Shown: in pieces, positions 33,406 through 45,631 of the stretch | How positions within the stretch are numbered: the stretch's first letter is position 1 | Layout of the letters: the number at the start of each line of letters is the position of its first letter | DNA from: an uncultured Clostridia bacterium | GTDB taxonomy: Bacteria > Bacillota > Clostridia > Oscillospirales > Oscillospiraceae | DNA: 64,000 nucleotides | Assembly (NCBI GenBank): GCA_946412355.1 | Contig: CAMKGX010000001.1 | Location: forward strand, 62,001-126,000 | Direction of reading: 5' to 3' | The notes under the pieces: model-generated | What the model saw: the letters and a program-made list of their open reading frames with translations, nothing else | Database searches by the model: none | Told to the model about the DNA's origin: nothing | Made by a program: the position numbers and the translations under genes

Positions 33406-33436
33406 AAAAAACCTCGTCGAAAGACGAGGTTTTTTC
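33406..33436 (+). terminator. Intrinsic terminator after tRNA-Arg
   Basis: AACCTCGTC-gaaa-GACGAGGTTTTTT. Confidence 0.8.
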
Positions 33437-33620
33437 AACTATATTCGTTCCTTCGGAACGAGTTATATTCGACCTTCGGTCGAGTGATATTGCTTTGCAG
33501 TGATATTCGTCCTGCGGACGAGTGAAGGAACGAATATAATATCACTTTTCGCGTCAGCGAAAAATATCACGTTTGCCGTAAGGCAAACATATCACATCGA
33601 GCGCAAGCGAGATATATCAC
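33437..33620. repeat. Stem-loop array 1 with ATATT/ATATCAC linkers
   Basis: Hairpins CGTTCC-ttcg-GGAACG, CGACC-ttcg-GGTCG, CGTCC-tgcg-GGACG, TTTTCGC-gtca-GCGAAAA, GTTTGCC-gtaa-GGCAAAC. Confidence 0.85.
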
Positions 33621-43428: not shown

Positions 43429-43458
43429 GTAAACCGAATTTGATTTGGAGGTTTACAA
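43427..43458. promoter_or_regulatory. BirA-type operator 2 (TTGTAAAC-N16-GTTTACAA)
   Basis: Perfect inverted repeat overlapping the -10 and ending just before bioY ATG. Confidence 0.85.
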
Positions 43459-43460
43459 CT

Positions 43461-43997
43461 ATGAAACTGCGCATGATGATATATACCGCCGTATTCGCCG
43501 CATTGACGGCGGTGGGCGCCTTTTTGCGGCTGCCCATGTGGCCGGTGGCCATTACGCTGCAATTCCTGTTCACCGCCATGGCGGGGGTGCTGCTGGGGCC
43601 GAAATACGGCGCCTTGAGCCAGGCGGTGTACGTAGCGGTGGGCCTGGTGGGCATCCCGGTGTTCACCATGGGAGGCGGCGTCGGCTACGTGTTCCAGCCC
43701 TCCTTCGGCTTCCTGATGGGGCTGATTCCGGCGGCGGCCGTCATTGGCTGCCTGTCTGCCAAAGCCAAGACGGCCTGGCGCATCGGCCTGGCCTGCCTGG
43801 CGGGCCTGGGGGTGCTGTATCTGGTGGGGCTGCCCTACATGGCGCTGATCCTCAACGTCTACATGAGCCGCGGCATGTCCGCCTGGGATATTCTTTATAA
43901 AGGTATGCTGCTGTTCCTCCCCGGCGATATGCTGAAAATCGTAGTGACGGCGGTGCTTTGTCCCACTCTTCGTAAACGCCTCCTGCTGGCCCAATAA
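43461..43997 (+). CDS. bioY: Biotin transporter BioY
   Basis: VFAALTAVGAFLRLPMWPVAITLQFLFTAMAGVLLGPKYGALSQAVYVAVGLVGIPVF; BirA-type operators upstream. Confidence 0.93.
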   Translation: MKLRMMIYTAVFAALTAVGAFLRLPMWPVAITLQFLFTAMAGVLLGPKYGALSQAVYVAVGLVGIPVFTMGGGVGYVFQPSFGFLMGLIPAAAVIGCLSAKAKTAWRIGLACLAGLGVLYLVGLPYMALILNVYMSRGMSAWDILYKGMLLFLPGDMLKIVVTAVLCPTLRKRLLLAQ

Positions 43998-44061: not shown

Positions 44062-44090
44062 TTGCAATTTGCCACTCGGGCCAGTATAAT
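44062..44090 (+). promoter_or_regulatory. SigA-type promoter (TTGCAA-N17-TATAAT) for uraA leader
   Basis: Consensus hexamers, 17-bp spacer. Confidence 0.75.
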
Positions 44091-44119
44091 GGGCAAGAAA
44101 ATTGAGAGGAGGGGACACC

Positions 44120-44197
44120 ATGACCAGCTTGCGCAGAAAGTTGACGTTGGGCCGTGGGCTTTTTGTTTCCCTTTTCATCGACAGTGTTTCTATTTGA
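44120..44197 (+). CDS. Leader peptide MTSLRRKLTLGRGLFVSLFIDSVSI (25 aa)
   Basis: GAGAGGAGGGGAC SD before ATG; stop UGA is the first three nt of the terminator stem; not in ORF track. Confidence 0.65.
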   Translation: MTSLRRKLTLGRGLFVSLFIDSVSI

Positions 44198-44223
44198 CCG
44201 GTATTTTTACCGGTCATTTTTTT
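44195..44223 (+). terminator. Intrinsic terminator/attenuator upstream of uraA
   Basis: TGACCGGTA-tttt-TACCGGTCA followed by T7. Confidence 0.88.
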
Positions 44224-44293
44224 ATAATGTCGAATCAAGATTCGGTTGGCAATAGTAACGATAGAACAAATGAAGAAAGAGAGGACTTGAAGA

Positions 44294-45631
44294 ATGAAGA
44301 AAGAGCTTGGCCAGGAGGCCATCTACGACGCCCGTGAGCTGGGCGTACCCCGCATGCTGGTGCTGGGCCTGCAGCACCTGTTCGCCATGTTCGGCGCCAC
44401 CGTGCTGGTGCCCATCCTGGTGTCCGGCTACGGCCTGCCCCTGTCCATCCAGACCACGCTGCTGATGGCCGGCCTTGGCACGCTGCTGTTCCACATCTGC
44501 ACCAAGCTGAAGGTGCCCGCCTTCCTGGGCTCCTCCTTCGCCTACCTGGGCGGCTTTGAGGCCGTGGCCCAGCTCAACTCCGGCAAGTACGCCGACATGA
44601 GCGGCGACGAGAAGCTGGCCTACGCCCTGGGCGGCGTGGTCGTCGCCGGTGCGCTGTACCTGGTGCTGGCCCTGCTGTTCAAGGTGGTGGGCGCCAAGAA
44701 GGTCATGCGCTACTTCCCCCCCATCGTCACCGGCCCCATGATCATCATGATCGGCCTGAACCTGGCGGGCTCCGCCATCAACAACGCCCAGACCAACTGG
44801 TGGCTGGCGCTGGTGGCCATCGCGGTCATCATCGTGGCCAACATCTGGGGCAAGGGCATGGTCAAGATCATCCCCATCCTGCTGGGCGTGGTGGTGAGCT
44901 ATATCGTGGCCCTCATCTTCGGCCAGGTGGATTTCACCGCCGTGTCCCAGGCCAACATCGTGGGCCTGCAGAAGTTCACCATCGCCAAGTTTGACCTGAC
45001 CTCCATCCTGGTGATGGCCCCCATCGCCATAGCCGCCATGATGGAGCACATCGGCGACATCTCCGCCATCTCCTCCACCACCGGCCGCAACTTCATCGAG
45101 GACCCCGGCCTGCACCGCACCCTGATGGGCGACGGCCTGGCCACCGCCTTCGCCGCCCTGTTCGGCGGCCCCGCCAACACCACCTACGGTGAGAACACCG
45201 GCGTGCTGGCCCTGAGCCGCGTGTACGATCCCCGGGTCATCCGCCTGGCGGCTGTGTATGCCATCATCCTCAGCTTCTCCCCCAAGTTCGACGCCCTGGT
45301 GAACTCCATCCCCGCGGCCATCGTGGGCGGCGTCAGCTTCATCCTGTACGGCATGATCTCCGCCGTGGGCGTGCGCAACATCGTGGAGAACCGGGTGGAC
45401 CTGACCAAGAGCCGCAACCTGATCATCGCCGCCGTCATGTTCGTCAGCGGCCTGGGCTTCAGCGCCGTGGGCGGCATCACCTTCATGGTGGGCGACGCGG
45501 CCATCACCCTCACCGGCCTTGCCATCGCCGCCCTCGCCGGCGTGCTGCTCAACGCCGTCCTGCCCGGCAACGACTACGAGTTCGGCGCCAACCCCGCCGC
45601 CGACAAGTCCGCCGATATGGGCAGCTATTGA
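44294..45631 (+). CDS. uraA: Uracil permease (uracil-xanthine permease family)
   Basis: VLGLQHLFAMFGATVLVP; GGPANTTYGENTGVLALSRV. Confidence 0.93.
   Translation: MKKELGQEAIYDARELGVPRMLVLGLQHLFAMFGATVLVPILVSGYGLPLSIQTTLLMAGLGTLLFHICTKLKVPAFLGSSFAYLGGFEAVAQLNSGKYADMSGDEKLAYALGGVVVAGALYLVLALLFKVVGAKKVMRYFPPIVTGPMIIMIGLNLAGSAINNAQTNWWLALVAIAVIIVANIWGKGMVKIIPILLGVVVSYIVALIFGQVDFTAVSQANIVGLQKFTIAKFDLTSILVMAPIAIAAMMEHIGDISAISSTTGRNFIEDPGLHRTLMGDGLATAFAALFGGPANTTYGENTGVLALSRVYDPRVIRLAAVYAIILSFSPKFDALVNSIPAAIVGGVSFILYGMISAVGVRNIVENRVDLTKSRNLIIAAVMFVSGLGFSAVGGITFMVGDAAITLTGLAIAALAGVLLNAVLPGNDYEFGANPAADKSADMGSY

Follow-up and report, generated by a model that had tools for sequence, protein, structure and literature searches.

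A probable UTP-sensitive, translation-coupled attenuator in the leader of a uracil permease-type gene of gut Clostridia

In enterobacterial pyrBI, a ribosome on the leader suppresses termination (Roland 1988, as cited in PMC5021804), and in Escherichia coli upp, codBA, and carAB control is exerted through UTP-dependent reiterative transcription and start-site choice (PMC6245113). Leader-peptide systems were, to the knowledge of Naville and Gautheret, unknown outside Proteobacteria and Actinobacteria before the histidine leaders that they reported in Firmicutes (PMC2965389), and the searchable full-text literature, outside which most subscription journals lie, yielded no account of attenuation of the pyrBI type in Firmicutes. 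Here we analyze a stretch of 64,000 nucleotides from an uncultured Clostridia bacterium (the window), in which an earlier note, made from the sequence alone, had proposed a pyrBI-type attenuator in front of a uracil permease gene. At the sequence level this reading is supported, with the response to uracil and translation-driven readthrough remaining inferences. Overall, the uraA leader is likely (probability about 0.78) to be a UTP-sensitive, translation-coupled transcription attenuator; the UTP signal, pausing in the tract, and occlusion by the ribosome are inferred, and there are no expression data. If the reading is true, UTP sensing has arisen convergently in a phylum in which PyrR is the known pyrimidine attenuator.

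Anatomy of the leader and the gene behind it

The features of the locus are collected in Table 1. The promoter, the Shine-Dalgarno sequence (SD), the 25-codon open reading frame (ORF), the UGA within a 9-bp stem, the T7 tract, and the uraA start at 44294 set out in the earlier note all held, base for base, and its description of the 3' half of the ORF as U-rich held in refined form, the U-richness being limited to the last ~24 to 30 nt before the stem. The promoter matches the consensus at 10 of 12 positions, transcription is inferred to start at about 44096, and most congeners share the −10 box together with CAAGAAAATT right after it. The 25 leader codons read MTSLRRKLTLGRGLFVSLFIDSVSI, and the leader UGA (44195-44197) forms the first 3 nt of the terminator stem. 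The hairpin itself (44195-44216) is TGACCGGTA-TTTT-TACCGGTCA, with nine perfect pairs, and the T7 tract occupies 44217-44223. A BioY-family gene (biotin transporter component; 43440-43997, + strand) lies directly upstream of the leader promoter, and elsewhere in the window a Gut-1 RNA (RF01706), which belongs to an sRNA family whose function is unknown, was found at 33436-33511 (+), 32 nt past a tRNA-Arg gene on the downstream side and with a score barely above the gathering threshold.

Table 1. Coordinates of the leader elements and the regulated gene within the window
Feature	Position	Strand	Remarks
Promoter, sigma-70-type	44062..44090	+	TTGCAA 44062-44067, N17, TATAAT 44085-44090; sequence read directly
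Leader Shine-Dalgarno	44106..44114	+	GAGGAGGGG; precedes leader ORF
Leader ORF, 25 codons + UGA stop	44120..44197	+	ATG 44120, TGA 44195-44197; frame conserved, peptide not
U-rich tract, 56% U over 36 nt	44159..44194	+	Proposed UTP-sensitive pausing region (pausing inferred)
Intrinsic terminator (attenuator)	44195..44223	+	9-bp stem, 4-nt loop, T7; only conserved structure of the leader
uraA-type NCS2 uracil permease, regulated gene	44294..45631	+	ATG 44294; protein comparisons

The nearest solved relatives of the permease are E. coli-type uracil permeases, which score ~140 bits above uric acid-xanthine permeases, and the EHxG and TTYGEN motifs align. The protein missed the curated uracil-permease cut-off (325 versus 477 bits), and uracil is therefore a probable but unproven substrate. 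Permeases 99-100% identical to it occur in the nearest named records, which are Ruminococcaceae/Oscillospiraceae MAGs, one of them from goat abomasum. In the window's own genome (assembly 96.5% complete), no pyrB, pyrE, or PyrR gene was found above cut-off. Since pyrB and pyrE are missing and upp is present, uracil import looks like a main route to UMP, and the organism is likely a pyrimidine auxotroph relying on imported uracil, nucleoside uptake having been outside the analysis. pyrB and pyrE have seemingly been lost in about half of the genus, and control of uraA may therefore matter most there. No uraA-type leader was detected on pyrB in stretches up to 1.5 kb upstream; in most pyrB-bearing genomes, pyrB sits behind pyrE.

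Conservation of the reading frame and selection for U

The genus was sampled with 32 genomes, the window's own included, of which 29 have a matching permease. The leader arrangement is present at 28 of these 29 permease loci, the exception (G008) being a divergent permease that lies directly behind a promoter without a leader. All 28 leader-positive congeners have an SD, and in 22 of 22 non-redundant congeners no stop interrupts the frame between the ATG and the stem, whereas shuffling of the body predicts 8.0. The genus ORFs are of several different lengths, every one of them in frame. In congener hairpins like TAACCGGTA...TACCGGTTA, both sides of the pairs are altered relative to the window's hairpin and the stop codon is still supplied. 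The hairpin sequence as such is not under selection; the reading frame is. Alignment of leaders from relatives, which the earlier note had put forward as a check, showed that the frame, the stop/stem overlap, and the U-richness are conserved and the peptide is not, in line with what it had predicted at the sequence level. Two loci of the genus (L027 in G004 and L029 in G029) keep this leader type in front of permeases just 35-39% identical to that of the window, and it is possible that the gene behind the leader was replaced in place.

To look beyond the genus, we collected 70 non-redundant leaders from the family and order by the presence of an ATG, an SD, and a stop close to a terminator; U content was not a criterion. 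These leaders have an SD, an ATG, and an ORF of 17 to 33 codons whose stop lies at or inside the hairpin; peptide and hairpin sequence vary. The stop falls −4 to +6 nt from the hairpin start in 56 of the 70, against 15.2 expected from shuffling. That comparison is biased, however, because the loci were chosen on stop position, and the genus gives the fairer estimate. Sister genera have the stop shifted into the 5' arm (CGT CGG TAA, GAC CGG TAA) or deeper into the hairpin. Among 25 further best matches in the family, 18 scored leader-positive and 7 did not; on visual inspection, four of these seven (L080, L082, L087, and L088) resemble the leader type but have longer ORFs or start with TTG, and the resemblance is weakest for L082. 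In named genomes, the leader was found in 35 of 51 records not labelled Lachnospiraceae-type (16 were not scored positive) and in none of 29 Lachnospiraceae-type records, and similar leaders occur in a few members of other families of the order. Coverage outside the genus is good but incomplete. A variant form was seen at four loci (L079, L087, L088, and L249), where a long hairpin (GCAATTGTTTTTTCTTTGAAAAAGCAGTTGC) contains the U-rich stretch in its 5' arm and the stop near its loop or 3' arm.

A complete congeneric genome, G001, served as a genome-wide control, in which 2.39 of 2.55 Mb (94%, ~32 kb of it N) was scanned for SD-ATG ORFs of 14 to 45 codons ending at a terminator preceded by at least 40% U. 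The uraA leader was the sole match in the 2.39 Mb, and no other regulon members were found in the scanned 94%. This leader has 56.7% U over the 30 nt preceding the stem and ties for the top among 1079 strong terminators (mean U fraction, 0.23; sd, 0.10). When longer ORFs are considered, 24% of the G001 terminators lie less than 12 nt from a stop codon and only ~3% overlap one, which makes the stop/stem overlap unusual for this genome. The arrangement is not due to chance.

Across the leaders, U makes up 53-58% of the 24 nt preceding the stem, 41% at −25 to −30, and ~25% beyond −37. At third codon positions, U reaches 62% in the last ten codons, against 25% in earlier leader codons and 12% in the permeases, and at fourfold sites the corresponding values are 57%, 25%, and 10%; the enrichment at silent third positions is seen in every codon family tested. 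Fisher p-values for silent-site U are tiny, but they count related leaders as independent, and it is the effect size that carries weight. Close leader pairs differ by 117 non-synonymous and 49 synonymous codon differences (the pairs overlap, and the figures are descriptive). Selection thus acts on U at the nucleotide level, silent positions included, and not on the peptide. The terminator is the sole conserved structure found by RNAalifold in the leader alignment, and no antiterminator, riboswitch, or PyrR site is conserved in the aligned leaders.

Proposed mechanism and rival readings

In the mechanism that we propose, RNA polymerase would start at ~44096, a strong ribosome binding site would emerge, and the U-rich stretch would be transcribed next. 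When UTP is ample, polymerase would cross the tract fast, and the hairpin at 44195-44216 would fold ahead of the ribosome and stop transcription at the T7 tract. When UTP is scarce, polymerase would linger in the U-rich stretch while a ribosome loads and catches up; at the UGA this ribosome would cover the 5' arm of the hairpin, allowing readthrough into uraA and more uracil import. What is conserved is the placement by which a ribosome reaching the stop would sit on the 5' arm, occlusion itself being inferred. Because the terminator alone is structurally conserved, the leader offers neither an antiterminator nor a ligand pocket as a switch. In several relatives the spacer between hairpin and permease is only 26 to 40 nt, too short for a second promoter, and in those relatives uraA must therefore be reached by readthrough. 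RNA polymerase holds a usual length of RNA inside it, and given this length and the median ATG-to-stem distance of 70.5 nt, the ribosome binding site should come free at about the time polymerase enters the tract; such a release would fit the need for a UTP-timed loading window. The tract is also ~20% C, so CTP is not excluded as a co-signal. An objection comes from Bacillus subtilis, which is described as largely uncoupled, terminators near stop codons being taken as a sign of this (PMC7858274). This uncoupling counts against coupled attenuation, and it is not known whether Clostridia differ.

A possible variant of this mechanism is a loading gate, in which C-rich clusters located where the U tract begins would act as an "anti-SD" and pair with the SD after leaving polymerase, and pausing would hide them and so keep the loading window open. 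In its favor, the SD pairs more strongly with the tract than with shuffled versions of it (mean z, −1.12; pairing probability, 0.76 versus 0.60), and C-rich 4-mers peak 18 to 34 nt before the stem, at 33-36% against 3-16% in most other windows. However, swapping SDs and tracts between leaders costs just 0.36 kcal/mol (p = 0.17), a failure that may reflect the fact that the SDs are all alike; the signal is weaker within the genus (z, −0.47), RNAalifold gives no such stem, and purine-rich SDs pair with any pyrimidine tract. A bolder version, also no more than a possibility, is that the leader is a second, independently evolved Clostridia UTP sensor in which pausing would time ribosome loading before the C clusters sequester the SD, and a terminating rather than elongating ribosome on the stop/stem overlap would be the antiterminator.

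Other readings fare worse than UTP-sensitive coupled attenuation. An amino acid attenuator, with the distal codons as its sensor of Phe, Ser, or Val, might be suggested by the fact that Ser and Phe make up 39% of these codons, but no residue keeps its place across the leaders, silent third positions are enriched in U, there is no alternative hairpin, and the gene controlled is a nucleobase permease, all of which make it very unlikely. There is similarly little to recommend the idea that the ORF is a small protein gene in its own right, closed by a terminator that belongs to it, and that uraA has its own promoter. The SD and start codon are good and a terminator stands right behind, but the peptide is unconserved, the spacer to uraA is very short in the relatives mentioned above, and the association with uraA survives the divergent permeases of L027 and L029. 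A ribosome arrest peptide that responds to uracil or to a nucleotide, in the way that TnaC responds to tryptophan, would also account for a short peptide with a terminator at its end. Known arrest peptides need defined residues, and here the C-terminal residues are freely variable (SVSI, SSFIC..SL, VFPF, ASICC, and FSLF, among others), leaving this reading with very little support. Control by PyrR or a riboswitch through an undetected RNA element can be all but excluded. A PyrR gene is present above cut-off in 5 of the 32 congeners (G010, G022, G024, G025, and G031), three of which (G022, G024, and G031) have a sub-threshold PyrR-like RNA close to it, but the window's genome has no such gene and the PyrR-bearing congeners still retain the ORF leader on uraA. 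The PyrR RNA element (RF00515) gave nothing at threshold in the window, its genome, or the genus, no riboswitch family in Rfam matched at the leader, where a relaxed threshold gave sub-threshold matches only, and the terminator alone is conserved. The remark of the earlier note that it knew of no PyrR site or riboswitch here is borne out by these searches.

Significance and comparison with known systems

The hosts of this leader are gut bacteria, some of them seemingly without de novo pyrimidine synthesis any more. The proposed mechanism needs a ribosome that catches RNA polymerase, although the best-studied Firmicute is said to be uncoupled, and a reporter could therefore test coupling in Clostridia. 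The leaders also offer a pattern to search for, silent-site U ahead of a stop/stem overlap, that could reveal leader peptides invisible to sequence or RNA-family searches.

PyrR attenuation (Bacillus type) likewise regulates uptake and synthesis genes of Firmicutes through a terminator that responds to pyrimidines, but it needs PyrR and an anti-antiterminator RNA, neither of which was found for the window leader. E. coli upp, codBA, and carAB likewise sense UTP for pyrimidine salvage and supply genes, but there the control acts on a T run among the first nucleotides to be transcribed, whereas the window leader has only two T after AAAA near its start and carries its U tract at the leader end. 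Amino acid leader attenuators of the trp/his type share the short translated ORF before a terminator but rely on runs of cognate codons and, classically, on mutually exclusive hairpins, both unseen in the Clostridia leader. A close likeness is to pyrL of E. coli K-12 pyrBI, which also has a short, SD-led translated leader, a U-rich stretch, an intrinsic terminator, and a pyrimidine gene behind it. The two differ in ORF length (44 codons in pyrL, 25 in the Clostridia leader), in the position of the stop (in pyrL, 44 nt beyond the point where the stem begins, with the hairpin wholly inside the ORF, versus on the first stem nucleotides), in U content of the 30 nt before the stem (40% versus 53-57% on average), and in the gene controlled (aspartate transcarbamoylase versus a permease), and no sequence similarity between them was seen. 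Homologous membership of the pyrL/pyrBI family was rejected, since gene, peptide, and geometry all differ. The sequence-level criteria of the pyrBI-type mechanistic class are fulfilled, with a leader ORF running to the terminator, a U-rich tract selected as nucleotides, no competing antiterminator, and a pyrimidine gene; readthrough that rises at low UTP and depends on leader translation is inferred. The "convergent" pyrimidine sensor of the earlier note fits these differences from pyrL, the response to UTP being inferred. By analogy, the Clostridia leader likely follows the same logic as enterobacterial pyrBI and evolved separately, in an unrelated lineage, with an unrelated sequence, and in front of an unrelated gene.
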